Assembly (NCBI RefSeq): GCF_030551875.1
Contig: NZ_JAUOZU010000016.1
Coordinates: 1 to 64,000, forward strand
Direction of reading: 5' to 3'
Source: Fluviirhizobium alvei
Lineage (GTDB): Bacteria; Pseudomonadota; Alphaproteobacteria; Rhizobiales; Rhizobiaceae
Length of the DNA stretch: 64,000 nt
Shown here: positions 4,828 to 20,470 of the stretch, in pieces
Layout: each line of letters starts with the position of its first letter
How positions within the stretch are numbered: position 1 is the first letter of the stretch
Notes under the pieces: generated by a model
What the model saw: the letters and a program-made list of their open reading frames with translations, nothing else
Databases searched by the model: none
Told to the model about the DNA's origin: nothing
Translations under genes and position numbers: made by a program

Positions 4828-6324
4828 TTACCGCAGAACGAACGGGTTCGGCACATCCTTGTTGAAGGCGAGCCAGACACTCTTGGTTTCCAGGAAATCG
4901 TAGATCGCATCCTGTCCGCTTTCGCGGCCCATGCCGGAATTCTTAACGCCACCGAACGGCATCATATAAGAGACTGCACGATAGGTGTTGGTCCAGATCA
5001 TTCCAGCCCGCAACCGCCTGGCAGCGGTAAAGGCACGCGCCATGTCTGCTGTCCACACCCCGGCCGCGAGCCCGTAGGGCGTGTCATTTGCGAGCGCATA
5101 TGCCTCCTCGTCATCGCTGAACTTGATGACGGACAGAACGGGGCCAAAGACCTCCTCCTGGGCGATGCGCATCCGATTGTTGACATCGGAGAGAACGGTC
5201 GGCTCCACGAACCAGCCATCTCCGCATTCGGGACGGTCGGCCGGCTTGCCGCCAAGGGCGACGGTTGCCCCTTCAGCCTTGGCCATCTCGATCATCGACA
5301 GGACCCGCTGATATTGCGGTTGCGTGGTGACCGGGCCAACCTGGGTTGTCATATCCATCGGATCGCCCATGCGCGCCGATCGCGCAAGCTCCAGAAACTT
5401 TTCGACAAACTGATCATGGATCGCCTCATGAACGAGCAACCGCGAACCGGCGATGCAGGTCTGGCCGGTAGCGGCAAAGATGCCCGAGACGACGCCCTTG
5501 ACCGCATTCTCGATGTTGGCATCGGGAAATACCAGTTGCGCCGATTTACCACCCAGTTCAAGCGTCAGCCGCTTAAAATTGGACGCCGATTGCTGGGCAA
5601 TCCGGCGGCCGGACAATTCGCCGCCGGTAAAGGCGATCTTGTCGATGCCCGGATGCGTCGAGATCGCTTCACCGACATCCTGCCCGAAACCGGTGACGAC
5701 GTTGACGACGCCCTTGGGGAAGCCCGCTTCCTCAACCAGGCGCATCAGTTCCAGCGTCGAGGCGGAGGTGAATTCGGACGGCTTGATCACCATGGTACAG
5801 CCGGCCGCCAGGGCCGGGGCCATCTTCCAGACCAGGAGGAGAAGCGGCGAATTCCACGGCGTGATGGCAGCAACGACACCGAGGGGCTCATGGCGCGTGT
5901 AGGTGAACATATCGGGCTTGTCGATCGGCGGAACCGCGCCTTCGACCTTGTCCGCCATGCCGGCGAAATAATAGAACCATTGCGGAATGTAGGCGACCTG
6001 TCCCCGCATCTCGGCAATCAGCTTGCCATTGTCCTGGACTTCGGTGGCAGCAAGCAGGTCGACATCGCGGGCAATGAGATCGCCAAGACGGCGCAGAAGA
6101 TGCCCGCGCTGGGTGGCATTGAGTGCCGGCCAATCGCCGCTGTCAAAAGCACGGCGCGCTGCCTCAACAGCCCGGTCGACATCGTTCGCGTCACATTTTG
6201 GGATACGCGCCCAGACCTTGGCGGTGAACGGATCAACAGAGTCGAACAGCTCGCCGGAGCGCGCCGTGACCCATTCGCCACCGATGAAGCAGCGATATTC
6301 CTTGATGTCCTGAACTCTCTTCAT
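4828..6324 (-). CDS. NAD(P)-dependent aldehyde dehydrogenase
   Basis: A 498-residue member of the aldehyde dehydrogenase superfamily that oxidises an aldehyde to the carboxylic acid. The catalytic Glu256 sits in ELGGKS and the nucleophilic Cys290 in GQTCIAG; the cofactor-binding stretch contains ITPWNSPLL and KPSEFT. I chose the ATG at 6324, preceded by AGGGTGA at good spacing, over a longer in-frame start at 6366. It is the last gene of the ABC-transporter operon, 61 bases after the alcohol dehydrogenase gene, so it probably completes an alcohol-to-aldehyde-to-acid oxidation. The substrate cannot be named from sequence. Confidence 0.93.
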   Translation of the reverse strand: MKRVQDIKEYRCFIGGEWVTARSGELFDSVDPFTAKVWARIPKCDANDVDRAVEAARRAFDSGDWPALNATQRGHLLRRLGDLIARDVDLLAATEVQDNGKLIAEMRGQVAYIPQWFYYFAGMADKVEGAVPPIDKPDMFTYTRHEPLGVVAAITPWNSPLLLLVWKMAPALAAGCTMVIKPSEFTSASTLELMRLVEEAGFPKGVVNVVTGFGQDVGEAISTHPGIDKIAFTGGELSGRRIAQQSASNFKRLTLELGGKSAQLVFPDANIENAVKGVVSGIFAATGQTCIAGSRLLVHEAIHDQFVEKFLELARSARMGDPMDMTTQVGPVTTQPQYQRVLSMIEMAKAEGATVALGGKPADRPECGDGWFVEPTVLSDVNNRMRIAQEEVFGPVLSVIKFSDDEEAYALANDTPYGLAAGVWTADMARAFTAARRLRAGMIWTNTYRAVSYMMPFGGVKNSGMGRESGQDAIYDFLETKSVWLAFNKDVPNPFVLR

Positions 6325-6385
6325 GATCTCACCCTGTAGGCATGCGAAACCGCTTCCACGATCCACGCGGATGTAACGTCAAATA

Positions 6386-7513
6386 TCAATCGAACTCGAT
6401 GATCTGTCGGACCGCCGATCCGTCAGCCAGACGGTCGAACCCTTCGTTGATATCGTCGAGTTTCAATCGATGCGTCAGAAGGCGGTCGACTGGCAGTTTG
6501 CCGCGCTTGTAGAGGCCGAGAAACCGCGTGATATCACGCGAGGGCACGCCAGAGCCGATATAGCTGCCCTTGAGCGTTCTCTCTTCGGCAACCAGCGAGA
6601 CGGCGGGAAGCGACAGCATGGCCTTGGGGTGCGGCAATCCGGCTGTAATGGTGGTGCCACCACGCCGGGTGATCGCATAGCTGAATTCGAGTGCCTTGAC
6701 CGATCCGGCAAACTCGAGGGCTGCCTGAACGCCTCCCCTCGTGGCTTCGCGGACTTTGGCGACGACGTCGGGATCATCCGAGTTGAAGGTATGCGTCGCC
6801 CCAAGTTCGCGGGCGAATTCAAGCTTGGACTCCAGCCGATCGACGGCAACGATCGTTTCGGCGCCGGCGGCAACGGCCCCGAGCAGGGCGGCAAGGCCAA
6901 CACCGCCCAGTCCGACCACTGCGGTCGATCCGCCTGGCTTGACATCGCCCGTGTTGAAGACGGCGCCGGCCCCCGTGAGCACGGCGCAGCCGATTAACCC
7001 AGCGATATCGAGCGGGACTTCCTTGTCGATCTTGACCAGGGACCGCCGCGACACGACGGCATGATCCGCAAAGGACGAGACGCCGACATGATGGAAGGCC
7101 TTCTTGCCCTTGTAGTGCAAGCGATTGACGCCACCGAGCAATTCACCGGCCCCATTGGAGACGGCACCCGGTTCGCAGAGAGCCGGCCGGCCTTCCGAAC
7201 AGGGCGAACAATGGCCACAGCTCGGCATGAAGACGAAGACGACATGGTCGCCCGGCTTCAGATCGTCGACACCTGCACCAACAGCCTCGACAATGCCGGA
7301 CGCCTCATGGCCGAGAACCATCGGCACCGGACGCGGCCGGTTTCCATCGATGACGGAGAGATCGGAATGGCAGAGACCTGCGACTGCCATCTTGACCAGG
7401 ACCTCGCCCGACCCGGGTCCATCGAGATCGACCTCCTCGATCTTCAGAGGCCGGGTGCGCGCGTAAGGGCGCTCGACACCGATTTCCTCAAGGACGGCGG
7501 CTCTGATCTTCAT
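6386..7513 (-). CDS. Zinc-dependent (class III-like) alcohol dehydrogenase
   Basis: A 375-residue medium-chain dehydrogenase. Catalytic zinc ligands are Cys48, His69 and the adjacent Glu70 (GHEASG). Four structural-zinc cysteines occur at 99, 102, 105 and 113 (CGHCSPC). The Rossmann glycine motif is GLGGVG, followed by the Asp that favours NAD. The ATG at 7513 was preferred because GAGGAAGA lies just upstream; a GTG seven codons earlier lacks a better site. It follows the transporter ATPase gene and precedes the aldehyde dehydrogenase, suggesting that it oxidises the imported compound or a product of the lactonase-like enzymes. Confidence 0.92.
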   Translation of the reverse strand: MKIRAAVLEEIGVERPYARTRPLKIEEVDLDGPGSGEVLVKMAVAGLCHSDLSVIDGNRPRPVPMVLGHEASGIVEAVGAGVDDLKPGDHVVFVFMPSCGHCSPCSEGRPALCEPGAVSNGAGELLGGVNRLHYKGKKAFHHVGVSSFADHAVVSRRSLVKIDKEVPLDIAGLIGCAVLTGAGAVFNTGDVKPGGSTAVVGLGGVGLAALLGAVAAGAETIVAVDRLESKLEFARELGATHTFNSDDPDVVAKVREATRGGVQAALEFAGSVKALEFSYAITRRGGTTITAGLPHPKAMLSLPAVSLVAEERTLKGSYIGSGVPSRDITRFLGLYKRGKLPVDRLLTHRLKLDDINEGFDRLADGSAVRQIIEFD

Positions 7514-7558
7514 GCTTGTCTTCCTCATTCCCACGGCGTTGGCGCCATTGAACCGCTC

Positions 7559-9055
7559 TCAATGAACAGCGGCGTACATGATCTTTTCTTCGGTGGCTTC
7601 CTCGGTCGAGAACTCCTCGACCACCCGCCCCTGTCGCGACACCAGAATACGGTCGGCGAGATTGAGGATTTCGGGCAGGTAGGATGAGATCACCACCACG
7701 GCGAGGCCGGCATCGGCCAACTGGTTGATCACATGATGCAACTCGGCAATGGCGCCGACATCGACGCCGCGTGTCGGCTCGTCGAAAATGACGAGCTTCG
7801 GCGCCTGAACCAGCGCCTTGGCGATCACGACCTTCTGCTGATTGCCGCCCGAAAGCTCGATCACGCGGGCATTGGCGTCAATGGCTCGGATATTGAGCTT
7901 TTCGGTCCAGCTCTTGGCGAGATCCATCATTTCCGAATGCGAAATCACAACGCCCCTGTTTCGGTCTGACGACAGCAGGTTCATGTAGATATTCTCGGCA
8001 ATCGACTTTGTTTCGAAGAAACCTTCGATCTTGCGGTCTTCAGTGACATAGACGATCCCGTCCTTCACCGCCGGACGGGGGACGCGATAGCGAACAGACC
8101 GGCCTTCGAGACGCACTTCACCGCCATGGAAGAAATCGCGTTTCACCACGCCCGAGATGATCTTGGCCGTCTCGGTACGACCTGAACCGATCAGACCGAA
8201 AATACCGGTGATCTGGCCGGCATAGATGGAGAAGGACGTGTTGCGCACCATCTTGCCCATCGACAGGTTCTGCACCGACAGGACCTTGGGCCCATAGGGT
8301 CGTGCCTTGCGGGTCAGGTCGCGATTGTAAAGCTCGGCCGAAAGCGATCGGCCGACCATGGCGGCAATGATCTTGTCGCGGTCGAAATTCTTCGCATCGT
8401 CCGTCATGACATGCTGGCCGTCACGCAGGATGGTGATGCGGTCGGAAATGGCGAGAGCCTCTTCCAGCGCATGGCTGATGAAGATGATCGAGACGCCTTC
8501 GCGTTTCAGGCGGCTCACGAGCGCGAAGAAATGGTGCTTCTCTTCGGGCGTCAGCGTGGCGGTCGGCTCGTCGAAAATGATGACCTTCGCCTTGTGGTGC
8601 ACTGCGCGCGCAATCTCGACCATCTGCTTCTGGGCTGCCCCGAGCTGGGAGACATACATGGTCGGATCAACGCCGAAACTCAGCGACTGCAGGAATTGTT
8701 GGGCGGCGATGTAGATGCCACGCAGGCGATTGAGGAACTTTTCCTTGCCGAGATAGATGTTCTGCGCCACCGTAAGCGAGGGGACCAGACTGGTTTCCTG
8801 GAACACCATGGCAATGCCCTTCGTCAGGGCATCGGCCGGGCTGCCGAACGTCATCGGCTCACCATTGAACGCGACCTCGCCCTCGGTCGGCTCATACACA
8901 CCGGCCATGATCTTGGTCAGCGTCGATTTTCCGGCCCCATTCTCGCCGAGCAGCGAATGGACCTCGCCCGGCATCAGCGTGAAACTGACATTGCGGATGG
9001 CGGCGACCCCGTGGAATGCCTTGGTGACGTTCTTCAATTCGAGGATGGGCTTCAT
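7559..9055 (-). CDS. Sugar ABC transporter ATPase (RbsA/MglA type, two domains)
   Basis: A 498-residue ATPase with two tandem nucleotide-binding domains. The first has the Walker A GENGAGKST; the second has a degenerate P-loop region (GLIGSGRTE) and the signature LSGGNQQKV. This architecture belongs to importers of ribose, galactose, xylose and related sugars or polyols. The ATG at 9055 follows GGAGGGG and lies one base from the preceding stop; an upstream in-frame extension is part of the neighbouring gene. It would energise the two permeases at 13415-14401 and 10151-12271. Confidence 0.94.
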   Translation of the reverse strand: MKPILELKNVTKAFHGVAAIRNVSFTLMPGEVHSLLGENGAGKSTLTKIMAGVYEPTEGEVAFNGEPMTFGSPADALTKGIAMVFQETSLVPSLTVAQNIYLGKEKFLNRLRGIYIAAQQFLQSLSFGVDPTMYVSQLGAAQKQMVEIARAVHHKAKVIIFDEPTATLTPEEKHHFFALVSRLKREGVSIIFISHALEEALAISDRITILRDGQHVMTDDAKNFDRDKIIAAMVGRSLSAELYNRDLTRKARPYGPKVLSVQNLSMGKMVRNTSFSIYAGQITGIFGLIGSGRTETAKIISGVVKRDFFHGGEVRLEGRSVRYRVPRPAVKDGIVYVTEDRKIEGFFETKSIAENIYMNLLSSDRNRGVVISHSEMMDLAKSWTEKLNIRAIDANARVIELSGGNQQKVVIAKALVQAPKLVIFDEPTRGVDVGAIAELHHVINQLADAGLAVVVISSYLPEILNLADRILVSRQGRVVEEFSTEEATEEKIMYAAVH

Positions 9056-9056
9056 C

Positions 9057-10151
9057 TCACTTCCCCTCCGTTCCGAGGTCGGTGGCGACGAGTTCGTCGC
9101 CACCCTTTGCGCTCGCCCAAAGCCTGCCTTCGGCCTCCACCGCTGACGTGACGCCGTGACGGGTGCCGCCCGCCCGGCTGTGGAAGCTGCGAAGCGGCGT
9201 GAAATCGGCAGCCAGTTCCACGACCAGCCCATAGGAACGCGTCGGGGCCCAGGGCTTCAGAATACCCATCTGTTTGAGCGCCCCACCCTGCATGGGCTCA
9301 TGATAGGAATAACCGCTGCGCAACGCGGGCGCGATCCAGAATTCCTTGTCGACTTCGGCCATCATCGCCTTGCGATAGGCCGGCTCGCGCAAAACGAATT
9401 CGATCAGGGGGCTGCGCGGCGCAAAGATGGCCAGCCAGTATTCACCGCGATCCGACCGGCTCAAGCGAGCCGGATAGCCGGGTAGATCTTCCATGACCTG
9501 GCCGAGCGCCTGCCCCGAGGGCGAAAGCCGCAGCAGCCGCTTCTTCCAGGCCTCGCTGACGATGATATTGCCATTCGGCTCAAGCGCTACTCCGTTCGGA
9601 TAGGCGAGCCGCGCCACTATCTGCGTCGCGGCTCCGCTCTTCGGGTCAAGCCGCCAGACTGAACCGGCCTGTTCACCATCGAGCAGATCGCGCTGCCAGT
9701 CATCGACGCCATTCTTCGACGAGCCGATGGCTATGACGAGCGAACCATCCGGCGCGAAGGCCATTGCGGTGACCCCGGTCCAGGACTGCGGACCTGCCGA
9801 CAGACCGGAAGCCTTCTCGGCATCCGCCTTGCGAAACGTGATCGTTCCGGCGGCAGCGATTGCCAGCAATCCGTTCTCGCCTGCTGCGATCGCCGTAATC
9901 GGGCCGTTCAGATCCGCCAGTTTTTCGCCGGCTCCCGCGCTGAACGGCTGGCTTAGCAGCATTGTTCCGCTAGAGAAGATCAAGCGCCCACCGGCGATGA
10001 CCAGATTGTCCGGGGCCGGAATCGCGAGGCCAATACCGGCCTCTTCGAGAAGGTTGTTGGGCTTCAGCGCACCATCGAGCGGCGGCACAGTTACCGCGGC
10101 CTCGCCCCGTCCCAGGAAGCGGTCGACCCAATTGCGAAGGACATTGGTCAT
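9057..10151 (-). CDS. SMP-30/strictosidine-synthase-like beta-propeller protein
   Basis: A 364-residue protein with the repeat pattern of a six-bladed propeller (ALEPNGNIIVSEAWKKR, LPGYPARLSR, YWLAIFAPRSPL). These motifs also appear in the fused domain of the preceding gene, so the two are paralogues. Relatives include gluconolactonases, paraoxonase-like lactonases and strictosidine-synthase-like esterases. No signal peptide is evident. The ATG at 10151 shares bases with the TAA of the upstream gene (TAATG), indicating coupled translation. A lactone- or ester-hydrolysing role on the imported substrate is an inference from family and operon. Confidence 0.83.
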   Translation of the reverse strand: MTNVLRNWVDRFLGRGEAAVTVPPLDGALKPNNLLEEAGIGLAIPAPDNLVIAGGRLIFSSGTMLLSQPFSAGAGEKLADLNGPITAIAAGENGLLAIAAAGTITFRKADAEKASGLSAGPQSWTGVTAMAFAPDGSLVIAIGSSKNGVDDWQRDLLDGEQAGSVWRLDPKSGAATQIVARLAYPNGVALEPNGNIIVSEAWKKRLLRLSPSGQALGQVMEDLPGYPARLSRSDRGEYWLAIFAPRSPLIEFVLREPAYRKAMMAEVDKEFWIAPALRSGYSYHEPMQGGALKQMGILKPWAPTRSYGLVVELAADFTPLRSFHSRAGGTRHGVTSAVEAEGRLWASAKGGDELVATDLGTEGK

Positions 10152-12271
10152 TACACTGCCCCCCAATAGTTCTGATAGCTCGACCAGCGATCATTACGAT
10201 CCGGCAGCCTGATGCGGCCGATGCGATTGTTGGTGATGCCGCCGAGATAGAGATAGCCCTTGTGTTCGCGCATCGAGGTGATCATCGGATGGTTCTTGGC
10301 ACCCTGATCCCAAAGCGATTCCAAGACTTCGCCCCTGTCGTTGAACCGTATCACGCAACCGATATTGAGGTTGGGATAGAGCCACTGGTCGGGAGCGATG
10401 CGGCGGGCCATTCGCTTGCGGAAGCCGGGCATGCGGAGCGCCACATCCAAAGCCGGCGAACGCATGCCCATGATCGCGGCCCAGTAGGTGCCATCGGACG
10501 CGCGGTTGATGTTATCCGGATAACCGGGCAGCCGATCGAGGACGCGCTCGACCTGGCCCGCCTTCGGCCCGCTGATATAGAAGCGGCTGATGCGGCAGGC
10601 CCAGCTTTCGGCAAAGAGAATGGACTGGCCATCCTGGGCGGTGCAGATGCCGTTCGGGAAGATCAGATTGCGCAGCGCCGTTTGCGTCTTGCCGCTTTTC
10701 GGATCGTAGCAGATGATGCGACCGTTCCCCCGGCTCTCCAGCGCATCGACCGGCCAATCGTGCATTTCGTAGCGGATGGTGGCTTCGGAGAAGAAGATAC
10801 GGCCATCCGGCGCAATATCGAGGTCATCGGCGAGCCGAAGCCGGGAATCATCGACCACCGAGAAGGCCGAGCGATTGGTCTCGTCGGTGACCTTGCTGAC
10901 ATTGCGGTTGCGATCGATCTTGTAGAGACCCATGCCGCCGACGCAGACGAGCAGGTTGCGGTCCTTGTCCCAGCTCATGCCGAGCGGTGAGCCGCCGATA
11001 TGGGCAAAGACTTCATGCGTCTTGTAGTCGGGTGGCGCGAAGCGAACGATATCACCATGGCGGGTGCCACAGTAGAGATAATCTTCATCATCGAGAATCA
11101 CATCTTCCGGCGATTCCACATCGGCAAGGCCAATGATCTCGACATCCTTGAGCCGATCATTGAGGGCGAAGGCTGTGGCTGCACCGGCAGACGTCGAAAC
11201 CGGTTGCGGCAACTCGACATAGGTCGGTGAGACATAGACCTTGTTGAGCAGCTTGTCGCGGTTCTTGAGCCAGCGCACATCGATGAAAACGGCGGCGATC
11301 AGGGTCAGGCCCAGAACCATCGGACCGGAACCGGAATTCAATCCCAGCCGGAGCACGCCGTTGGTCATGACGAGAACGATCACGGCGCCGATGAGAGCCT
11401 TGACGATCGAGCCACGTCCGCCACCGAGGCTGTTGCCGCCGAGAACCGCTGCCGTCAGTGCCGAGATTTCCAAACCCATGCCGGTATCGGTGCCGGCGCC
11501 GGACAGGCGCGCCGCATAGAGTACACCCGCCAGGCCGCACAGCATGCCCGAGATCGTATAGGCCGCGCAGACGGTGCCGCGAACCGACAGGCCGATATTG
11601 TGGGCCGAACGACGCGAACCGCCGATCGCCATCAGGCGCCAGCCGGGCCGCGAGCGCGTCAACAGAATGTGGCCGATGATTGCGACCACCAGAAGCACGC
11701 AGAAGGAGAAGGGGATGCCGAAAAAGCCACCCAGCCCCATCAGATCCCAGACACTGGACTGATAGAAGCTCATGGACATGGCCTGCGCATATTGCAAGAG
11801 CAGCATATCGACGACCGCGCGCACGATGATGAGTGTCACCAGCGTCGTCAGAAAGGCTCTCAGCCGGAGATAGCCAATCAGCACGCCATTGAGGAGGCCG
11901 ACCGAGCCACAAATCAAAATGACGGCAGGAACCGTTGCCCAGACCGACCAGCCGGCAAGATTGAGCAGGGCAAGCGTCATGAAATTGCCGAGCGCGAAAT
12001 TCGAGCCGACCGAAAGATCGATGCCGCCGACAACGATGACCAGCATCATGGCAATGCAGACCAGCGCGAATTCACCGAGCTGGCGGGCGGTGATCGAAAG
12101 GTTCCCGGTCGTATAAAAATTGGGAATGAGGGCGCCGAAGACCACAATGACGGCGATCAGGACCAGGAAGGGAATCGCGTTGTCGATCCATTTCTTGGAC
12201 AGGATTTCCCCGATCACATGATCTGGAATGAAGCGATATCTCAGCTTCGTGAATGTTGATGCCGACGCCAA
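10151..12271 (-). CDS. Fusion: RbsC-type ABC permease with C-terminal SMP-30-like propeller
   Basis: A single 706-codon frame encodes two families. Residues about 30-335 are a ribose-type permease with about nine to ten hydrophobic segments, including GGIDLSVGS and the loop GGNSLGGGRGS. After a short linker (about 336-378), residues 380-695 form a strictosidine-synthase/SMP-30-like propeller with DVESPEDVILDD, LADDLDIAPDGRIFFSE, FPNGIC and LPGYPDNINR. The start is TTG, placed six bases after AGGAGG. No frameshift or stop separates the halves. If the permease topology follows RbsC, the propeller faces the cytoplasm, where it could act on the substrate as it enters. Confidence 0.9.
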   Translation of the reverse strand: MASASTFTKLRYRFIPDHVIGEILSKKWIDNAIPFLVLIAVIVVFGALIPNFYTTGNLSITARQLGEFALVCIAMMLVIVVGGIDLSVGSNFALGNFMTLALLNLAGWSVWATVPAVILICGSVGLLNGVLIGYLRLRAFLTTLVTLIIVRAVVDMLLLQYAQAMSMSFYQSSVWDLMGLGGFFGIPFSFCVLLVVAIIGHILLTRSRPGWRLMAIGGSRRSAHNIGLSVRGTVCAAYTISGMLCGLAGVLYAARLSGAGTDTGMGLEISALTAAVLGGNSLGGGRGSIVKALIGAVIVLVMTNGVLRLGLNSGSGPMVLGLTLIAAVFIDVRWLKNRDKLLNKVYVSPTYVELPQPVSTSAGAATAFALNDRLKDVEIIGLADVESPEDVILDDEDYLYCGTRHGDIVRFAPPDYKTHEVFAHIGGSPLGMSWDKDRNLLVCVGGMGLYKIDRNRNVSKVTDETNRSAFSVVDDSRLRLADDLDIAPDGRIFFSEATIRYEMHDWPVDALESRGNGRIICYDPKSGKTQTALRNLIFPNGICTAQDGQSILFAESWACRISRFYISGPKAGQVERVLDRLPGYPDNINRASDGTYWAAIMGMRSPALDVALRMPGFRKRMARRIAPDQWLYPNLNIGCVIRFNDRGEVLESLWDQGAKNHPMITSMREHKGYLYLGGITNNRIGRIRLPDRNDRWSSYQNYWGAV

Positions 12272-12350: not shown

Positions 12351-13376
12351 TCAACGGAGGATCTTGGCGTATTGCTGCGGATCCCAGCAGGTACCGGCCT
12401 GGACATCGTCCTTGGTCATGACGCGGGTCGGCGAATAGATCTGCGTCTTGATGGCGCCGGCGCCCTGGTTGTTCTGAAGTGCGATCATGATCGCAGTCCA
12501 GGCATCACGGCCCATGCCGGGAGCATTGTAGTTGATGACTGCGGAATAGGTGCCATCGGCGAGCCCATCGCACATGCTCTGTGCGCCACCGCCCGAGGTC
12601 AAGAAATAGACCTGGCCCTGTTTGCCGGCCTGCTTGATCGCCGCACCCGTGCCGATGCCCTGACCATCCCAGACGTCGATGACGCCGCAGAGATCGGGAT
12701 GCTGCTGGAGCGTCGTTTCGGTGATTGCGCGCGCCTTGGAGGCATCCCAGTCGGCCGCCTGGCTCGAGACGATCTGGATTTCCGGATGTTCGTTGAACAC
12801 CTTCATCATGCCCTGGACCTGGTAATAGCTGACGCCGCCGGTGAGCACACCCTGCACGATCGCAACCTTGTGCGAGGTCTGGGTATCCTTGCCGCACTTG
12901 TCCAGCATCATGTTGGCGGCCTGCTCGCCCATGGCGATGAAATCCGGTCCGACAAAGGCATCGGTCTGAACTGCGCCCTGCATGTTCAGCTGCACGACCA
13001 CGATGCCTTCGGCATTGGCCTGCTTCAACAGGCGTGCCAGAGACTGCATGTCGGGATTTTGCGTGACGATGACATCGGGATGTTCGGCAATGAGGGCGGT
13101 CATGCCCTGAGCCATCGCATCGGTGTTCCAGTTCGGATCCTGCGACGTGAACGTCATGCCGTAACGCTCGGCTTCGGTCTTGACGACCCCACCCCAGGCC
13201 TGTGCCAGGTCGAAGCCGATCGAAATCGGCAGATAGGCGATCTTCTTGCCGGCGAGCGCCGACAGGGCCGGCTCGCGATAGGGATCATTCATGTCGTCGG
13301 CACGCACGGACGTCGCGCCGATCGTCAGGGCAGCGAGCGCTGTCGCTGCCAGTGTCTTCAAAGCAAAGTTACGCAT
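12351..13376 (-). CDS. Periplasmic sugar-binding protein of the ABC importer
   Basis: A 341-residue protein with an N-terminal signal peptide (hydrophobic core ATALAALTIGATS, probable cleavage after VRA near residue 26). The rest resembles the type I periplasmic-binding-protein family 4 (RbsB-like), with KIAYLPISIGFDLAQAWGG at the start of the first lobe and a purine-repressor-like fold pattern. It delivers ligand to the two adjacent permeases. It sits 38 bases after the upstream permease gene and 79 bases before the fusion permease, in one operon. The ligand is unknown. Confidence 0.9.
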   Translation of the reverse strand: MRNFALKTLAATALAALTIGATSVRADDMNDPYREPALSALAGKKIAYLPISIGFDLAQAWGGVVKTEAERYGMTFTSQDPNWNTDAMAQGMTALIAEHPDVIVTQNPDMQSLARLLKQANAEGIVVVQLNMQGAVQTDAFVGPDFIAMGEQAANMMLDKCGKDTQTSHKVAIVQGVLTGGVSYYQVQGMMKVFNEHPEIQIVSSQAADWDASKARAITETTLQQHPDLCGVIDVWDGQGIGTGAAIKQAGKQGQVYFLTSGGGAQSMCDGLADGTYSAVINYNAPGMGRDAWTAIMIALQNNQGAGAIKTQIYSPTRVMTKDDVQAGTCWDPQQYAKILR

Positions 13377-13414: not shown

Positions 13415-14401
13415 CTAGATGTCGCCCTGCTGTCCCGTCTGCTCGTCACGCGGGTTGACGATCGAGTCGACCACAACGGCCAAAAGCAGGATCAGGCTCT
13501 TGATGACATTCTGGACGGTGTACTGGATGTCCATGATGGTCATTCCGTTCATCAGAACGCCGATCAGCAGGGTACCGACGATGACGTTGCGGACATTGCC
13601 GCGCCCGCCGGACAGGCCGACGCCGCCCAGGACCACCACCAGGATGACGTCGTAGATCATGTTTGAATTGACGATGCGGGTGTTCATCGCCTCCACCGAC
13701 GTGGCCGTAATGATGCCGGCAACGAAGGCGATCGCGCCCGAGAGCACATATTGCAGCACCAGCATTGGCCTCACCGCAATGCCGCCGATGCGCGATGCGG
13801 CAAGGTTGTCGCCAATCGCATAGATGAAGTTGCCGAGCTTGGTGTAGCGCAGGAACAGATAGACGATCAGCGCCATGGCCGCGGCAACCACGATCGGCAT
13901 CGGAATGCCGAACAGCTTTCCCTGGCCGAATGTCACAATCCAGCCCATCGTCTTCGGCATGTAGACGACGTCGGTTCCGGTGATGAGATGGGCGCGGCCA
14001 AAGCCATAGACGAAGGTCGACATGGCCAGCGTCGCGAAAAGCGGTGGAATTTCCGCATAGGCCACCAGAATTCCGGTGCAAAGCGCGATCCCGACCGCAA
14101 ACAACAGGCCCATGGTCAAAGCACCGGAGACGGGCACACCCTGATGGATGAGCTGCATGGCCCAGGCGACCGATATGGCCATGACTGCCACAAGCGAAAG
14201 ATCGATACCGCGACCCAGGACGACAATCAGCATGCCGAGACCCAGAACGCCCAGAACGGCCACACTGCGCACCAGCGAAAGAAGATTGGCGCTCGACAGG
14301 AAATTGTTGAGCGTCACGGCAAAGGCCACGAACAGAAGCACCGTCAGAATGAAGACGATTTTCTCCTGATTCAGATAGCGAAACAGACTGGGTGCATTCA
14401 C
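13415..14401 (-). CDS. RbsC-type sugar ABC permease
   Basis: A 328-residue polytopic protein of the ribose/xylose permease family, with about nine hydrophobic segments and the motifs GRGIDLSLVA and GGVGLSGGRGN. The GTG at 14401 was chosen because GGGAGGAGGA stands seven bases upstream; the in-frame extension further upstream has no such site. It is the first gene of the ABC operon and pairs with the fused permease, so the channel is probably a heterodimer of a plain and a propeller-bearing subunit. Confidence 0.9.
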   Translation of the reverse strand: MNAPSLFRYLNQEKIVFILTVLLFVAFAVTLNNFLSSANLLSLVRSVAVLGVLGLGMLIVVLGRGIDLSLVAVMAISVAWAMQLIHQGVPVSGALTMGLLFAVGIALCTGILVAYAEIPPLFATLAMSTFVYGFGRAHLITGTDVVYMPKTMGWIVTFGQGKLFGIPMPIVVAAAMALIVYLFLRYTKLGNFIYAIGDNLAASRIGGIAVRPMLVLQYVLSGAIAFVAGIITATSVEAMNTRIVNSNMIYDVILVVVLGGVGLSGGRGNVRNVIVGTLLIGVLMNGMTIMDIQYTVQNVIKSLILLLAVVVDSIVNPRDEQTGQQGDI

Positions 14402-14527
14402 CGGATTGTCCTCCTCCCGGGGTTGCCGTTCATTAGAAGAACAGCAACTTCCACTGCCAGATTGTCGACCCTTCATCTTCGGAAGTGGTGAAAATCTCGG
14501 CAGTTGCTGAGGACTATAGCCAGCGTG

Positions 14528-14574: not shown

Positions 14575-15546
14575 TTATGGCTTTTTGGCGGATTTCACAG
14601 GGGGCTGCTCGGGTGCTTTTGCGCCGCTCCACTGTCCGGTCGCCGCGAGTTCGAGAAGGGTTTCACGGCAAAGCGCCTCGATAGTCGCCACAGCATTTGT
14701 CATCGGTCGATCGGTGGCCCGAACCAGGTGGACATCACGGCTGAGCTCAGGTTTGGTGATGCGCCAGGACCGCAACCGCCCTTCCTGGACCTCGCGTGCG
14801 ATCGCGTTGAAGGGGAGGATCGAGTAGCCGAGACCTTTTTCGACCAACTCCTTGATGCTGCCATAGGAATCAACGTCGATCACGGTGTTGAGCTCGAGTT
14901 TGTTCAATGCAGCTTCGCGTTCGAGCAGTTCCCGCAGACCATGGCTGTAGCTTGGCAGGATGAGCGGAAGCGGCGCCACATTCTTGAGCGTGAGCGGGCC
15001 AAATCCCGGCGTTTTCACGTCGGCCATCGGAGAGGATGGCCCGAGCAGGCAAAGCTCCTCGGTCAGGACCGGATAGGATTTCAGAACCTTGTCTTCGACC
15101 GGAATGTAGAGAACGGCAATGTCGACGCGGTTTTCCCGGATCCATTCCGTGATGAATCCGCTCATGGCCTCGGCAATGCGAAGCTTGATCTTCGGAAAGC
15201 GCGCCCGCGCGGCAATGATGAGCGGAACGGAGAGAATCTGGCTGATCGTGCCCGGCAGACCCAGCCTGACTTCGCCGGCCGGCTCTGCCTCGTGGCCACG
15301 GATCTCCTCCTGGACGATCGCGAACTGATCGATGATGATGCGCGCATTGCGCAGGAGAATTTCACCGGCTTCGGTTGCTACCACGCCCTGGGGACTGCGG
15401 AAAAGAAGCGGCGTGCCGAGATCGGCTTCCATGTTGCGCACATGCAGGCTGAGTGCCGGCTGCGCGACATTCAGGGTCGCAGCGGCCTTGGAAAAGGAAC
15501 CCTGTTCGACGATGGCAACAAAATAGCGCAGCTGGCGCAGATCCAT
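14575..15546 (-). CDS. LysR-family regulator of the itaconate-type cluster
   Basis: A 323-residue LysR-type regulator. The N-terminal winged helix contains SFSKAAATLNVAQPALS (recognition helix) and is followed by a linker helix and an effector-binding region starting near residue 90 (VRLGLPGTISQ). The ATG at 15546 follows GGGAGGG; an in-frame start five codons earlier is less well placed. It lies downstream of, and in the same direction as, the CoA-transferase gene. In Pseudomonas the equivalent cluster is also accompanied by a LysR protein that responds to itaconate, so the same role is inferred here. Control of the following sugar ABC operon is an alternative. Confidence 0.85.
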   Translation of the reverse strand: MDLRQLRYFVAIVEQGSFSKAAATLNVAQPALSLHVRNMEADLGTPLLFRSPQGVVATEAGEILLRNARIIIDQFAIVQEEIRGHEAEPAGEVRLGLPGTISQILSVPLIIAARARFPKIKLRIAEAMSGFITEWIRENRVDIAVLYIPVEDKVLKSYPVLTEELCLLGPSSPMADVKTPGFGPLTLKNVAPLPLILPSYSHGLRELLEREAALNKLELNTVIDVDSYGSIKELVEKGLGYSILPFNAIAREVQEGRLRSWRITKPELSRDVHLVRATDRPMTNAVATIEALCRETLLELAATGQWSGAKAPEQPPVKSAKKP

Positions 15547-15653
15547 GCCCAACCCTCCCACTTATTTTTATAGCTTCAAGACGATGTTTCGCTTTTTACT
15601 ATAACGTGCGGAGGATGAGCCCTGTCAAGGCAGGGGTGAATAGCCGGCGCCCT

Positions 15654-16784
15654 TCAGGTCCGCTCGCTGAACTCGCGTTTCAATGGCTCGCTATCGGCAC
15701 CCAGCGCAGGCACCGGTCCGAATTCGGGCAAATGCCCATCGACAAGCGCACCGGGACCAAGCAGCCGCACCGGCCCGGTCGGTGTCTCGACGGTCACATA
15801 GCGGTTCTGCGGGTGGCTCGCGACATCCTCCAGCGTGCTGACCCGACCATAGGCGATCTTGGCCGCATACAGCCTCTCCGTCATTTCATCGCGCGAATGG
15901 GAAGCGAAAATCGGCGTGATTTCAGCATCAAGCGCCTCACGATTCGTCACGCGGGCACTGTTCGAACCGAAACGAGGATCCGCTGCCAGATCCGGACGTC
16001 CGAGCGCATCGGTGCATAGCCTCACCCATTCGCGTTCGTTCTGGATTGAGAACAGGACCGAACGACCATCCGCGCAGACATAGGCGCCATAGGGGGCGAT
16101 GGTGGGATGGCTGAGGCCACTGCGTGCCGGAACCTTGCCGCCATAGACATATTGCAGGTAGGGCACATTCATCCAGTCGGACAGGGCGTGATAAAGCGAC
16201 ACGGCGATATGACGGCCCTTGCCGTTCACCGAACGAGCGTAGAGCGCCTGCAACACGGCCTGGGTTGCGGTCATGCCGGCTGCGATATCGCAGACCGACA
16301 CGCCAACGCGGGCCGAACCATGTTCGTTGCCCGTAATGGCCGAAAGACCGCTTTCAGCCTGCACCAAGAGATCATAGGCCTTGAGCTCCCTGAGGGGCCC
16401 TTCATCGCCATAGCCGGAGATCGAGCAGGTAATCAGACGCGGGAACCGGCTGCGCAGGAGGTCGGGCCCGAAACCCAATCGCTCGACGGCACCCGGCGCG
16501 AGGTTCTGGATGAAGATGTCGGCCTTGCCGATCATGTTCATCAGGATATCGCGATCGGCCTCCTGCTTGAGGTCGAGGCAAACGGATTGCTTGCCGCGAT
16601 TGAGCCAGACGAAATAAGCGCTCTCGCCATGAACGAGATGATCGTACTCGCGGGCAAAATCGCCTTCGGGCCGCTCGATCTTGATCACGCGGGCACCCGC
16701 TTCGGCGAGTTTGCCGGACAGATAGGGGGCAGCAACGGCCTGTTCGACGGAAACGACGAGCAAGCCTTCCAGATCTCTATTCAT
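15654..16784 (-). CDS. ict: CaiB/BaiF CoA-transferase, candidate itaconate CoA-transferase
   Basis: A 376-residue class III CoA-transferase with the N-terminal Rossmann-like pattern AEAGARVIKIERPEGD and the family segments LNRGKQSVCLDLK and YDLLVQAESG. Its C-terminal half matches the interdigitated-ring architecture. Position opposite a CitE-like lyase and next to a FAS1-like hydratase suggests it activates a C5 dicarboxylate (itaconate, or mesaconate/citramalate) using succinyl-CoA or another donor. The gene order matches the P. aeruginosa cluster around PA0878-PA0883, in which the CaiB-type protein is itaconate CoA-transferase (recalled, not searched). Substrate remains an inference. Confidence 0.8.
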   Translation of the reverse strand: MNRDLEGLLVVSVEQAVAAPYLSGKLAEAGARVIKIERPEGDFAREYDHLVHGESAYFVWLNRGKQSVCLDLKQEADRDILMNMIGKADIFIQNLAPGAVERLGFGPDLLRSRFPRLITCSISGYGDEGPLRELKAYDLLVQAESGLSAITGNEHGSARVGVSVCDIAAGMTATQAVLQALYARSVNGKGRHIAVSLYHALSDWMNVPYLQYVYGGKVPARSGLSHPTIAPYGAYVCADGRSVLFSIQNEREWVRLCTDALGRPDLAADPRFGSNSARVTNREALDAEITPIFASHSRDEMTERLYAAKIAYGRVSTLEDVASHPQNRYVTVETPTGPVRLLGPGALVDGHLPEFGPVPALGADSEPLKREFSERT

Positions 16785-16878: not shown

Positions 16879-17017
16879 TAATGGGGAGGATATAGCGGAA
16901 TGTTCTGGCTTGCAGGAGAAAGCCATAAGCGAGGGATATGGTGCTGGCAGCAAAAAACTATTGGCCGGACTGGACTTGCGTCCGGATAATGAGACGAATT
17001 CAGCAGGAATCCCTTCC

Positions 17018-17842
17018 ATGACGTCTTCGCCGGAGCTTGCGTCACTCTTCCTCTTCGTTCCAGCCGACCGGCCCGAGCGTTTTGCCAAGGCAGCGGCCTC
17101 GGGTGCCGACGCGATCATCATCGATCTTGAGGATGCCGTCGCCGCCGATCAAAAGGCGCCTGCCCGCGCGGCACTGACATCTCATGACGATGCGTTGCGG
17201 AACGCCGGCAGACCGGTTTTCATTCGCATCAACGGCACCACCACCCGGTGGCACGACGACGACCTTGCTGCCGTAGAGCGGCTTGCCGTTTCCGGCATCA
17301 TCCTGCCCAAGGCCGAGAGCGCATCCACCCTCGCCGCCCTTCGCCAGCGCCTTGCCGGAAAATTGCTGATCGCGCTCGTCGAGACGGCGGCAGGTCTATC
17401 CTCTGTCGACGAAATCGCGACGGCCTGCGATCGGATCGCCTTCGGCTCCGTCGACTATGCTGCCGATCTCGGATGCGCCCATCATCGGGACGCGCTGCTT
17501 CTCGCGCGCAGCCGGATCGTTCTTGCGGCCAGACTGGCCTCTCAACCGCAGCCGATCGATGGCGTCACATTGTCGATCAAGGATGACGAAGCCGTCGAAC
17601 AGGACGCCCGCTATGCAATGAAACTCGGCTTCGGCGCCAAGCTTCTCATTCACCCGGCGCAGGTGATTGCCGCCAGGCGGGGCTTTTCTCCATCTGCCGA
17701 AGAGATCTCCTGGGCCGAAAAAGTGGTCGCAACCAACCTCGACGGCGCTGCCAGTGCTATTAACGGGATTATGATCGACGCACCGGTTCTTGCCCGTGCC
17801 CGCCAGATCCTCGAACGCCAAACCCGCCTGACGAACGGATAG
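17018..17842 (+). CDS. ccl: CitE-family lyase, candidate (S)-citramalyl-CoA lyase
   Basis: A 274-residue HpcH/HpaI-CitE TIM-barrel protein. The start of the barrel SLFLFVPADRPERF, the metal-binding motif DLEDAV, the Glu in LVETAAGL and the segment FGSVDYAADLG are typical of citramalyl-CoA/malyl-CoA lyases. It would cleave (S)-citramalyl-CoA to acetyl-CoA and pyruvate, the last step of itaconate breakdown. The ATG at 17018 was chosen because AGGA precedes it and the family fold starts here; an in-frame ATG 36 codons earlier only adds non-homologous sequence. The next gene starts three bases after its stop. Confidence 0.83.
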   Translation: MTSSPELASLFLFVPADRPERFAKAAASGADAIIIDLEDAVAADQKAPARAALTSHDDALRNAGRPVFIRINGTTTRWHDDDLAAVERLAVSGIILPKAESASTLAALRQRLAGKLLIALVETAAGLSSVDEIATACDRIAFGSVDYAADLGCAHHRDALLLARSRIVLAARLASQPQPIDGVTLSIKDDEAVEQDARYAMKLGFGAKLLIHPAQVIAARRGFSPSAEEISWAEKVVATNLDGAASAINGIMIDAPVLARARQILERQTRLTNG

Positions 17843-17845
17843 AAC

Positions 17846-19213
17846 ATGACCGGCATTACCAACAGCCTGGCGCGCTATGTCGCCGAACTCGACTATTCGG
17901 ACCTTCCCGCGGAGGTTCCGGAACGGGCAAGCCATCTGGCGATCGATCTCATTGGCAGCATCGTGCGCGCCAGCAAGGAGGCGGATTCGACACCGTCGCT
18001 GCTCGGCATGCTGAAACGTCTCGGCATGGATGGACCCGGCCAATCTTCGGTCTTCGGTCTTGGGAGGCGCTATTCGCCGGCAACGGCCGCCCTTCTCAAC
18101 GGTGCCCTCGGCCATTCGCTGGATTTTGACGACACGCACGCCGACAGTTCGCTGCATCCGAGCGCGCCTGTCGTGCCGGCGGCTTTTGCGGCGGCGGAAA
18201 TGGTCGGCGCTTCCGGCAAGGAGCTTCTTGCGGCAATCGTGGCCGGTTACGAAGTCTGCTGCCGGCTCGGCAATGCACTCGATCCCACCGCACACTATGC
18301 GCGCGGCTTCCACCCGACGGCGACGGCGGGAACGTTCGGTGCTGCGGCTGCCGCTGGAAAACTCCTGGGGCTTGACGCGGCAGGGCTGGCTTCGGCCTTC
18401 GGGGTGGCCGCCAGCCAGGCGGCGGGGTCTCTGCAGTTTCTCGTCAACGGCGCCTGGAACAAGCGCTATCAGGTGGGTGCTGCCGCCATGAACGGGCTGA
18501 TCGCCGCCACTCTCGCCAAGGAGGAATTCATTGGCGCAGCCGATGCAATCGAAGGCAAGCACGGGTTTCTCGTGGGTTACACGGACAATGCCAGGCCGGA
18601 ACTCGCAACCAGGGAACTTGGCCAGACCTATGAGACAATGAAGATCGGGATAAAGCCCTATCCGGCCTGCCGCTACACCCATGCAGCCGTTGACGGGCTT
18701 CTTAGGCTTCGGCGCCTTCACGGCTGGACGGCGCAGGACATCCAGTCGGTACGCGTGGGCTTGCACCAGAACGGCATCGTTCTCACCGGTGCCCCGCTTG
18801 AGGAAAAAAGGCGCCCGCGCAGCGTGGTCGAAGGGCAGTTCTCCATGCCCTTTGCCGCCGCCATCGCGCTCTACAAGGGCAGTTTCGGCTGGGACGATTA
18901 TGCGCTTCTCGGCAATCCCGATGTGGAAGCCATCGCATCGCGCGTGGTGGTCGAGCGCGATGAGCGGCTCGAAGGCTTGCGCCATCCGTTCGGCGCCATC
19001 ATTTCCGTGAGTACGCCAAGTGGCGTGATCGAGGAGCGGATTGCCGATCCTTCCGGCGAACCGGACACGTTCCCGGACCGAAGCGCCGTGGAGGCCAAGT
19101 TCATGACGCTCGCAACACCTGTGCTGGGCAATGGGGCATCGTCATTGTTCATGCAGCTCGAAGCCCTGCCATCGGTTGCGAACATAAACGATTTCAGTAT
19201 CCTATCCGTTTGA
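17846..19213 (+). CDS. MmgE/PrpD-family protein (2-methylcitrate dehydratase / cis-aconitate decarboxylase relative)
   Basis: A 455-residue MmgE/PrpD protein with the all-helical N-terminal domain (NGALGHSLDFDDTHA, HPSAPVVPAAFA) and the lid domain (IKPYPACRYTHAAVDG). Family members act on C5-C7 carboxylates: methylcitrate dehydration, cis-aconitate decarboxylation to itaconate, or epimerisation. A PrpD homologue of undefined role is also part of the Pseudomonas itaconate cluster. It starts three bases after the lyase stop, so the two are cotranscribed. Whether it feeds itaconate or an isomer such as citraconate into the pathway is open. Confidence 0.85.
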   Translation: MTGITNSLARYVAELDYSDLPAEVPERASHLAIDLIGSIVRASKEADSTPSLLGMLKRLGMDGPGQSSVFGLGRRYSPATAALLNGALGHSLDFDDTHADSSLHPSAPVVPAAFAAAEMVGASGKELLAAIVAGYEVCCRLGNALDPTAHYARGFHPTATAGTFGAAAAAGKLLGLDAAGLASAFGVAASQAAGSLQFLVNGAWNKRYQVGAAAMNGLIAATLAKEEFIGAADAIEGKHGFLVGYTDNARPELATRELGQTYETMKIGIKPYPACRYTHAAVDGLLRLRRLHGWTAQDIQSVRVGLHQNGIVLTGAPLEEKRRPRSVVEGQFSMPFAAAIALYKGSFGWDDYALLGNPDVEAIASRVVVERDERLEGLRHPFGAIISVSTPSGVIEERIADPSGEPDTFPDRSAVEAKFMTLATPVLGNGASSLFMQLEALPSVANINDFSILSV

Positions 19214-19247
19214 TGCTATCGCTTTTTCCTATGAGAGCGCCAATCAA

Positions 19248-19267
19248 ACTGTATTTGTGGTTATAGT
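19248..19267. promoter_or_regulatory. Second LysR-type inverted repeat, before the acyl-CoA dehydrogenase gene
   Basis: ACTGTAT (19248-19254) and TTATAGT (19261-19267) form an imperfect inverted repeat around TTGTGG in the 102-base gap between the PrpD-like gene and the acyl-CoA dehydrogenase gene. The gap is longer than others in this cluster and AT-rich, so a separate promoter controlled by the same LysR protein is plausible but unproven. Confidence 0.3.
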
Positions 19268-19315
19268 TCGCGCGCCCTAGACTCCGACCGATAATTCGAC
19301 AGGAGTGAGAGAGCC

Positions 19316-20470
19316 GTGGCCAGAGAAGACTATGCCGAGATCCGCCAGGAGGTTGCCAAACTCTGCGCCGGTTTTCCGGGCGATTACTGGCAACGGCTCG
19401 AGCGCGACAGTGCCTATCCCGAGGAATTCGTCCAGGCGCTGACGGAAGCCGGTTACCTGTCCGCTCTCATTCCCGAGGCATTCGGCGGAGCCGGCCTGCC
19501 ATTGTCTGCGGCCGCGGCGATTCTGGAGGAAATCCAGCGATCCGGCTGCAACGGCGGCGCCTGCCATGCCCAGATGTACATCATGGGCGCCATCCTTCGT
19601 CACGGCAACGATGATCAGAAACAACGCTATCTGCCCCGGATCGCCAGTGGCGAACTGAGATTGCAGGCTTTCGGCGTCACCGAGCCGTCGAGCGGAACCG
19701 ACACGACCTCGCTCAAGACCTTCGCCCGCCGCGACGGCGACCATTATATCGTCAACGGCCAGAAGATCTGGACATCGCGGGCCGAGCATTCCGACCTTAT
19801 GCTGCTGCTTGCCCGCACGACCCCGAAAGATGAGGTCGCCAAGAAGACGGATGGCCTTTCGGTCTTCATCCTGGACATGCAGGAGGCGAAGAGATCCGGC
19901 ATGACGATCCGCCCGATCCGCACCATGATGAACCATGCGACGACCGAAGTGTTTTTCGACAATGTGCGGGTTCCGGCCGAAAACCTGATCGGCGAAGAGG
20001 GCAAGGGGTTCCGCTATATTCTTTCCGGCATGAATGCCGAACGGATCCTAATCGCTGCAGAATGCGTCGGTGATGCGAAATGGTTCATCAAGAAGGCGGC
20101 TGACTATTCGCGCGACCGGGTCATCTTCGGCCGCCCGATCGGCCAGAACCAGGGCGTGCAGTTTCCGATCGCCAGGGCGCATGCCCAGATGCGGGCAGCC
20201 GACCTGATGGTGAAGGAAGCCGCCCGGCTTTATGAAGAGGGTGAAAACTGCGGCGAAGAGGCCAATATTGCCAAGATGCTCGCGGCCGAAGCCTCCTGGG
20301 CTGCGGCAGAGGCCTGTGTCCAGACCCATGGCGGCTTCGGATTTGCCGAGGAATATGATGTCGAGCGCAAGTTCCGCGAGACACGGCTCTACCAGGTGGC
20401 CCCGATTTCCACCAATCTGATCCTGAGCTTCATTGCCGAGCATGTGCTGGGCATGCCGCGCTCCTATTGA
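19316..20470 (+). CDS. Acyl-CoA dehydrogenase of the itaconate-type cluster
   Basis: A 384-residue flavoprotein with the usual order of N-terminal helical domain, beta domain (FGVTEPSSGTD) and C-terminal helical domain (RVIFGRPIGQNQGVQ, VQTHGGFGFAEEY). The catalytic Glu common near the C-terminus (YEGT) is missing: the site reads YQVAP. A Glu242 in GMNAERI occupies the place where isovaleryl-CoA dehydrogenase keeps its catalytic base. The start is GTG with AGGAGTGAG upstream. Its substrate is unknown; a branched C5-CoA such as itaconyl- or methylsuccinyl-CoA would suit the neighbourhood. The following hydratase gene begins 14 bases downstream. Confidence 0.88.
   Translation: MAREDYAEIRQEVAKLCAGFPGDYWQRLERDSAYPEEFVQALTEAGYLSALIPEAFGGAGLPLSAAAAILEEIQRSGCNGGACHAQMYIMGAILRHGNDDQKQRYLPRIASGELRLQAFGVTEPSSGTDTTSLKTFARRDGDHYIVNGQKIWTSRAEHSDLMLLLARTTPKDEVAKKTDGLSVFILDMQEAKRSGMTIRPIRTMMNHATTEVFFDNVRVPAENLIGEEGKGFRYILSGMNAERILIAAECVGDAKWFIKKAADYSRDRVIFGRPIGQNQGVQFPIARAHAQMRAADLMVKEAARLYEEGENCGEEANIAKMLAAEASWAAAEACVQTHGGFGFAEEYDVERKFRETRLYQVAPISTNLILSFIAEHVLGMPRSY

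Follow-up and report, generated by a model that had tools for sequence, protein, structure and literature searches.

The system described here is an ATP-binding cassette (ABC) importer encoded on the minus strand of a 64,000-nucleotide stretch of Fluviirhizobium alvei DNA (contig NZ_JAUOZU010000016.1, positions 1 to 64,000; hereafter the window), in which a ribose-type permease is continued in the same frame by a six-bladed beta-propeller. The fusion belongs to a constant set of five genes, encoding permease 1, a periplasmic binding protein, permease 2 with its propeller, a second, stand-alone propeller, and an ATPase with two nucleotide-binding domains; judged by their sequences, the two propellers form a pair of a probably active and a degenerate member. 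We suggest, with a probability of about one half, that the fused propeller is a cytoplasmic lactone or ester hydrolase tethered at the exit of the importer, with the degenerate propeller as its partner; the hydrolysis, the class of substrate, and the docking of the partner are what we infer.

The fusion frame (10151..12271, minus strand) runs uninterrupted for 706 codons from a TTG start with AGGAGG upstream. A preliminary description, made from the sequence alone, had read this frame as an RbsC-type permease followed by a propeller, and Pfam, AlphaFold2, and 66 end-to-end homologues agree with it. The domain search that it had proposed found BPD_transp_2 (PF02653) at residues 61-327 (E 4.5e-34), SSL_N (PF20067) at 367-411, SGL (PF08450) at 405-602, and Str_synth (PF03088) at 482-569, all above the curated cut-offs; the Str_synth score is 65.1 bits against a cut-off of 25. 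In the AlphaFold2 model (mean predicted local distance difference test score, pLDDT, 83.8) the N-terminal half is helical and the C-terminal half is a beta-propeller. Its Foldseek matches are six-bladed propellers, the fold of the SMP-30/PON/DFPase superfamily, and include strictosidine synthase (STR)/TGW6, the RPA3624 lactonase, DFPase, Drp35, and PON1. The preliminary description called the propeller SMP-30-like; by Pfam and by profile comparison the domain is closer to the strictosidine-synthase-like proteins than to SMP-30. A Pictet-Spengler enzyme, that is, a strictosidine synthase proper, was rejected, since the position of the catalytic glutamate, which we take to be Glu309 of R. serpentina STR (register in chain 2fp8 deduced from the chain length), is Thr665, with threonine in 86 of the 86 fused propellers that have a letter there. 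Residues 471-480 and 501-510 contain several invariant residues and are modeled with low AlphaFold2 confidence; a partner chain may make contact there.

Sixty-six other fusions align with that of the window over the full length, at 53-85% identity, and the fusion is thus not a sequencing accident. No conserved internal start was found at the permease/propeller junction among 87 fusions: a start codon with a Shine-Dalgarno-like 4-mer lies within 30 codons of the junction in 11 of them, at scattered positions. A frame artefact or two separate proteins were rejected, since the fusions of the set are single open frames without a conserved internal start; neither the internal start nor the frameshift that the preliminary description had envisaged in all homologues is present. 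In one genome (G002, 86% complete) the propeller match of a fusion copy (G002:C1:2863786-2864818) is split over two open frames of 249 and 505 codons, the interruption being a sequencing error or a pseudogene.

Relatives were collected with the fused-propeller alignment as the query; the best 80 of 392 gave 79 named loci, and seven annotated plasmid loci bring the set to 86. These contain 90 propeller matches, of which 72 have room on both sides and 18, lying near a contig or locus end, were not fully scored. One match with room is a Deinococcus single-domain protein that belongs to no transporter; the other 71 are fusions, and every one of them has the complete five-part set. No unfused version of the cassette was found among these 72 matches in the 86 loci. 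Uncut cassettes from further genomes, several of them fetched as divergent, carry the five-part set as well, with permease 1 on the opposite strand in L153. The survey of spread, another proposal of the preliminary description, assigned all 78 loci with assigned taxonomy (of 85 named) to Pseudomonadota, mainly Alphaproteobacteria, also Beta- and Gammaproteobacteria. In the phylum sample the fused frame occurs in 11 of 398 genomes; in the family sample the stand-alone partner is matched at E < 1e-50 in 66 of 394 genomes (80 match in all, 14 weaker matches being set aside), both counts including the window's own genome. Of 1784 plasmid records with a match, 15 cover at least 80% of the fusion. 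Three such cassettes are present in the window's genome. In a Dongia metagenome-assembled genome (L071) 19 kb contain three cassettes in tandem, of which the outer two are truncated at the ends of the locus, and L087 and L089 have two tandem binding-protein genes inside one cassette.

This distribution bears on the possibility of an accidental fusion of convenience, in which an ordinary lactonase gene was joined to a neighbouring permease and is uncoupled from transport. Separate genes may indeed occur side by side, as in L130, where an unfused SMP-30-like gene lies near weak permease and ATPase matches. We nevertheless regard such an origin as very unlikely: the matches with room include no unfused cassette, a degenerate second propeller accompanies all 71 fusions among them, and conservation extends beyond the last membrane helix to about residue 355.

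Metal ligands were predicted by aligning the fused domain to TGW6 and locating the TGW6 residues Glu59, Asn167, Asn226, and Asn272, as named in the accessible part of PMC10958001. A single chain offset of 28 fits all four positions and leads to Glu389, Asp482, Asn540, and Asn587 as the predicted site of the fused propeller. All four positions are retained in 87 of 87 fused propellers and in none of 82 stand-alone ones, and the cassettes would therefore pair a probable enzyme with a pseudoenzyme. Asn587 is invariant among the fused propellers (87/87) and never found in the stand-alone ones (0/82; arginine in 76/82), and the preceding Asp586 behaves similarly (85/87 and 0/82). Two of the fused ligands are acidic, Glu389 and, in 86 of 87, Asp482. 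The complete site is also present in seven of 11 single-domain relatives and in 14 of 17 fused rows of a divergent set, the failing rows being L126 and L029, which represent one place, and L151.

The preliminary description was incomplete in that it missed the constant degenerate partner at 9057-10151. The fusion stop overlaps the start of this gene (TAATG), and in 60 of 83 fusion/stand-alone pairs an in-frame ATG of the stand-alone gene lies at -4 to 0 of the fusion stop. Pfam recognizes the product weakly (Str_synth was found in 32 of 65 aligned orthologues); hhalign relates its profile to that of the fused propellers with a probability of 99.9, and the AlphaFold2 model is a propeller (mean pLDDT 90.1), for which Foldseek also gives the six-bladed fold. 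No signal sequence was seen in the protein when judged by eye. A tree was built from 30 fused and 30 stand-alone propellers, both samples of the available sequences, together with 11 single-domain proteins; in it the three kinds form separate groups, each with 100% bootstrap. A recent copy of the fused domain was rejected as the origin of the stand-alone gene, which forms its own group behind a branch of length 1.44. Trp506 and Trp557 occur together in 86 of 87 fused and 82 of 82 stand-alone propellers and in none of the 11 single-domain proteins, therefore suggesting a docking face common to both cassette propellers; a divergent clade has lost them in its stand-alone protein, and in a single divergent fusion the second position is tyrosine. 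Co-inheritance was rejected as proof of contact: the distance correlation of fused and stand-alone propellers is 0.81, compared with 0.83-0.93 for other pairs of cassette proteins.

Ten membrane helices, one of them only 11 residues long, were picked by hand from the AlphaFold2 helix list. Stretches rich in arginine and lysine in the permease half are residues 1-26, 135-138, 207-229, and 333-344, the last of them conserved (R333, K336, R338, K340). With the N-end inside and ten crossings, the fused propeller is placed in the cytoplasm, and by helix count and charge both propellers are probably on that side. A periplasmic propeller was rejected on the same grounds.

We propose the following mechanism. 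Two different permeases would form the channel of a CUT2-type (ribose-family) importer, and the cytoplasmic end of permease 2 would carry a metal-dependent six-bladed propeller, whose most likely task is to hydrolyse a lactone or ester group of the cargo on its way out of the channel. The product would be a hydroxy acid or a free acid, which enzymes encoded nearby could oxidise and activate with coenzyme A (CoA). The stand-alone propeller, its predicted metal site destroyed, probably has a structural or regulatory part, docked either to the fused propeller or to the opposite side of the channel. Processing of substrate at the membrane, as put forward in the preliminary description, gains from the hydrolase-like character of the domain (ligands in 87 of 87, matches to RPA3624, DFPase, and PON1) and from its tethering, on the probable cytoplasmic side, while hydrolysis itself stays a suggestion. 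Importers driven by ATP generally have no need to prevent back-flow, which was proposed there too; such prevention would be meaningful only with membrane-permeant cargo, e.g., a neutral lactone, whose opening at the exit would also trap it.

Conservation of the parts was compared by mean pairwise identity. In 74 cassettes the fused propeller (0.672, a figure inflated by the fetching of the main locus set by propeller similarity) equals the ATPase (0.670) and exceeds the permeases (0.561 and 0.540), the binding protein (0.480), and the stand-alone propeller (0.418). The comparison was repeated on 13 cassettes, namely that of the window, two more from its genome, that of G023, and nine of 12 fetched via a search with the stand-alone protein, cut regions (L154, L156, L161) being left out. 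In the 11 of these with an intact site the values are 0.588 for the fused propeller, 0.598 for the ATPase, 0.479 for the binding protein, and 0.46 for the permeases. The fused propeller is thus conserved like the motor, the ATPase, and unlike the receptor, the binding protein.

Two cassettes serve as natural controls for the role of the metal site. In L126 (G023:C2, also seen as L029) all four ligands are lost, and the propeller has only 0.41 identity to that of the window, compared with 0.55 for the permeases and 0.64 for the ATPase, whereas in L127, where the site is kept, the propeller (0.66) exceeds the permeases (0.49-0.50). In L151 (G658:C1) two of the four ligands and the equivalent of Asp586 are lost. 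Both L126 and L151 retain Arg500, Trp506, Asp509, Trp557, and the whole cassette. The propeller of L126 drifted and its transporter did not, which favours catalysis, and the constraint on the fused propeller seems to be tied to the predicted metal site. Both cassettes keep both propellers, which points to a second, structural role besides catalysis.

These data also bear on an alternative in which the propellers form a structural or regulatory gate: the channel or the ATPase would be gated by both of them on binding of a ligand, which could be cargo, product, or metal, and the metal site would be a sensor or a fold stabiliser rather than a catalyst. Regulatory domains act in this way in other ABC importers, and the pseudo-propeller beside all 71 fusions, the survival of the cassette in L126 and L151 with the site lost or damaged, and the two tryptophans, which fit a common docking face, would all be expected. 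So would the conservation between context types (see below), which is 0.667 for the fused propeller, close to the ATPase (0.678) and above the binding protein (0.477). However, a purely structural part should not drift on loss of the site, as the propeller of L126 does (the sign in L151 is weak), and the four ligand positions are kept in all 87 fused propellers of the main set and also in seven of 11 single-domain relatives. We consider the gate unlikely, though deserving of attention.

Neighbouring genes were analyzed in a non-redundant set of 65 loci, cut at 93% propeller identity, and grouped by homology clusters; greedy lists of longest open reading frames were dropped, as antisense frames were picked. 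At least one CoA-linked catabolic family adjoins 34 of the 65 cassettes, compared with none of 20 ordinary CUT2 loci from 12 genomes (the window's own included; one locus cut by a contig end), in a comparison biased by the drawing of the query families from the cassette loci themselves. Several context types are distinguished. In that of the window, alcohol and aldehyde dehydrogenases accompany a CoA-transferase and a LysR regulator, which would fit, as a guess, the opening of a lactone or ester to a hydroxy acid that is oxidised by the two dehydrogenases and activated by the CoA-transferase. Another type has a divergent AraC regulator and a downstream acyl-CoA ligase (15 of 65 loci, all 15 with AraC and 14 with a match to enoyl-CoA hydratase). 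Ligase and hydratase of L076, the only locus checked for this, form one frame of 885 codons (L076:12652-15306) directly downstream of the cassette. A third type combines a short-chain dehydrogenase/reductase with a 3-hydroxyisobutyrate-dehydrogenase-like protein and MmgE/PrpD.

The fourth type, 3-hydroxy-3-methylglutaryl-CoA (HMG-CoA) reductase with a CoA-transferase and a hydratase, with or without HMG-CoA lyase, hints at a possible cargo. The reductase adjoins six of the 65 cassettes and the lyase five; reductase loci include Metarhizobium (L067, Alphaproteobacteria) and Alcanivorax (L091, Gammaproteobacteria). The sole reductase tested, that of L096 (Mesorhizobium plurifarium), scores 427.6 against a cut-off of 259.95 with the degradative equivalog TIGR00532, and the record of L035 names its reductase degradative; the one lyase tested scores 397.7 with NF004283 (cut-off 246). 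Degradative HMG-CoA reductase acts on mevalonate, and mevalonate forms a lactone, so that mevalonolactone is a concrete first candidate substrate. A bolder proposal, which we put forward tentatively and rate as possible rather than probable, is an importer with integral chemistry, in which the catalytic propeller on one half of the channel and the pseudoenzyme propeller on the other would form an asymmetric heterodimer that takes up the cargo, hydrolyses it, and lets it go, and whose HMG-CoA reductase/lyase branch would be a dedicated machine for import and opening of mevalonate/mevalonolactone. In the open PubMed Central (PMC) literature on mevalonate uptake, the word "lactonase" is absent from the available part of PMC13064465.

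CUT2 transporters mostly carry sugars, and the cargo could alternatively be a sugar ester of the acyl-glucose type, recognized by the sugar-type binding protein and permeases, with the propeller cutting the ester and the neighbouring enzymes activating the freed acid with CoA. On this view it would be understandable that the propeller is conserved and the acid pathways next to it vary. In addition, TGW6 (8kg3), the best match in the PDB both by profile and by fold, is a hydrolase of indole-3-acetic acid-glucose according to the accessible part of PMC10958001. Its identity in the fold match is only 20%, though, no recurrent sugar gene was found among the annotated neighbour clusters, and mevalonate, the substrate of the HMG-CoA reductase, needs no sugar. 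An acyl-sugar importer thus appears quite improbable to us.

Several observations weigh against a tethered hydrolase, besides the inflated conservation figure noted above. The site is dispensable in some cassettes, as L126 and L151 keep the rest; the argument from drift is drawn from a single locus, L126, and in L151 the propeller (0.46 to the window) is still above its permeases (0.42-0.44). Asp586 is lost in two Acidisoma fusions (L081, L086). The TGW6 crystal contained no Ca2+ despite the four ligand positions, and its authors remark that the site has one acidic residue and Ca2+ binders two or more (accessible part of PMC10958001); the aspartate of the fused domain at the TGW6 Asn167 position does not prove metal binding. 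An enzyme specific for its substrate would not be expected to stay so constant from one context type to another, unless it recognizes a chemical group that the substrates have in common. Finally, none of the searched CoA-linked families adjoins 31 of the 65 cassettes, and a Pantoea plasmid cassette is next to genes of the kind associated with sugar use, for a dihydroxyacetone kinase and TIM-barrel proteins.

The remaining features of the window are collected in Table 1. The minus-strand operon has the order LysR, permease 1, binding protein, fusion, stand-alone propeller, ATPase, alcohol dehydrogenase, aldehyde dehydrogenase. Both permeases match PF02653 above the cut-off and share the operon with a PF13407 binding protein and an ATPase with two ABC domains, as in CUT2/RbsC importers. 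Among the matches listed (for the ATPase, 25 of 189), no sugar-specific NCBIfam equivalog reaches its cut-off for the permeases, the binding protein, or the ATPase; the ATPase scores 490 bits with AraG, under the cut-off of that model. The HpcH/HpaI lyase, MmgE/PrpD, and acyl-CoA dehydrogenase set is also annotated beside the cassette in L031.

Table 1. Location of the operon parts, of predicted key codons of the fused propeller, and of adjacent genes in the window
Feature	Position	Strand	Basis
Permease domain of the fusion, RbsC/CUT2 type (residues 1-345), N- and C-ends probably cytoplasmic	11237..12271	-	PF02653, AlphaFold2 helices, K/R-rich stretches
Propeller domain of the fusion (residues 367-706), of the strictosidine-synthase-like/SMP-30 superfamily, with an intact predicted metal site	10154..11173	-	Pfam, Foldseek, ligand positions
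Glu389 codon, predicted metal ligand (TGW6 Glu59 position)	11105..11107	-	E in 87/87 fused
Asp482 codon, predicted metal ligand (TGW6 Asn167 position)	10826..10828	-	D in 86, N in 1 of 87 fused; T in 67/82 stand-alone
Asn540 codon, predicted metal ligand (TGW6 Asn226 position)	10652..10654	-	N in 87/87 fused, 13/82 stand-alone
Asp586-Asn587 codons, Asn587 being the predicted fourth ligand (TGW6 Asn272 position)	10511..10516	-	
Trp506 codon, candidate docking residue	10754..10756	-	W in 87/87 fused, 82/82 stand-alone, 0/11 single-domain
Trp557 codon, candidate docking residue	10601..10603	-	W in 86/87 fused, 82/82 stand-alone, 0/11 single-domain
Stand-alone propeller, 364 residues, degenerate metal site	9057..10151	-	AlphaFold2, ligand loss
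ATPase, RbsA/AraG type, two nucleotide-binding domains, ATG start	7559..9055	-	PF00005 in two stretches, E 3.5e-57
Periplasmic binding protein	12351..13376	-	PF13407, E 4.2e-47
Permease 1, RbsC type, without propeller	13415..14476	-	PF02653, E 2.7e-28
Zinc alcohol dehydrogenase, downstream of the cassette	6386..7534	-	PF08240, PF00107; NCBIfam TIGR03989, 336 bits, below the cut-off of 440
Aldehyde dehydrogenase, downstream of the cassette	4828..6366	-	PF00171, E 1e-179
LysR regulator, upstream	14575..15561	-	PF00126, PF03466
Type III CoA-transferase, upstream	15654..16784	-	PF02515, E 8.3e-107
Divergent catabolic block: HpcH/HpaI (CitE-like) lyase, MmgE/PrpD, acyl-CoA dehydrogenase	16910..20470	+	PF03328, PF03972/PF19305, PF00441/PF02770/PF02771

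As the preliminary description had surmised, similar fusions are already in the databases, where the parts go under split names: "ABC transporter permease" or "RbsC", "SMP-30/gluconolactonase/LRE family protein", "strictosidine synthase", and "hypothetical protein". The stand-alone propeller, for instance, is a hypothetical protein in four of six annotated plasmid records and a strictosidine synthase in the other two. No publication on the fusion, or on a strictosidine-like propeller with an ABC transporter, was found among the titles listed from the open PMC literature. The sequences are thus public, and what appears to be new is that a CUT2 importer has one propeller fused to it and a second, degenerate one as its constant partner. 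The general view of ABC importers is that their cargo passes unchanged. If the proposed hydrolysis is real, this widespread and strictly conserved importer would allow the coupling of transport to chemistry to be tested, with L126 and L151 as useful controls, and the cassette could help to find out what is carried by transporters that are at present classed as sugar importers.

The closest known transporters are the CUT2 importers RbsABC, AraFGH, and GguAB, which have the same PF02653 permeases, PF13407 binding protein, and double-domain RbsA-type ATPase; the cassette differs from them in having two unlike permeases, the second of which ends in a propeller, as well as an extra propeller protein and frequent CoA-linked neighbours. 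In rhizobia, the cytoplasmic sugar kinase RhaK reportedly interacts with the CUT2 rhamnose transporter; unlike the fused propeller, it is said to be a kinase and a separate protein, without a pseudoenzyme. The strictosidine-synthase-like propellers (PF03088/PF20067), plant STR and rice TGW6, are the best sequence and fold matches of the fused domain, which has GYPDN and PNG motifs in common with TGW6, but the window protein is bacterial and joined to a transporter. RPA3624, DFPase, Drp35, and PON1 have the six-bladed fold (matches at E 2e-11 to 9e-10) and the equivalent ligand positions; compared with these calcium lactonases and hydrolases of the SMP-30/PON/DFPase superfamily, the fused domain is only 13-15% identical, is part of a transporter, and has a putative activity. 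For RPA3624 itself, no paper naming the protein was found in the open PMC literature. A precedent for natural fusion of this type of propeller is DrSOD of Deinococcus radiodurans, in which a superoxide dismutase is fused to a propeller with Ca2+-dependent lactonase activity (PMC12362111); there the fusion partner is the dismutase and not a transporter, and the accessible part of that paper mentions no degenerate partner.

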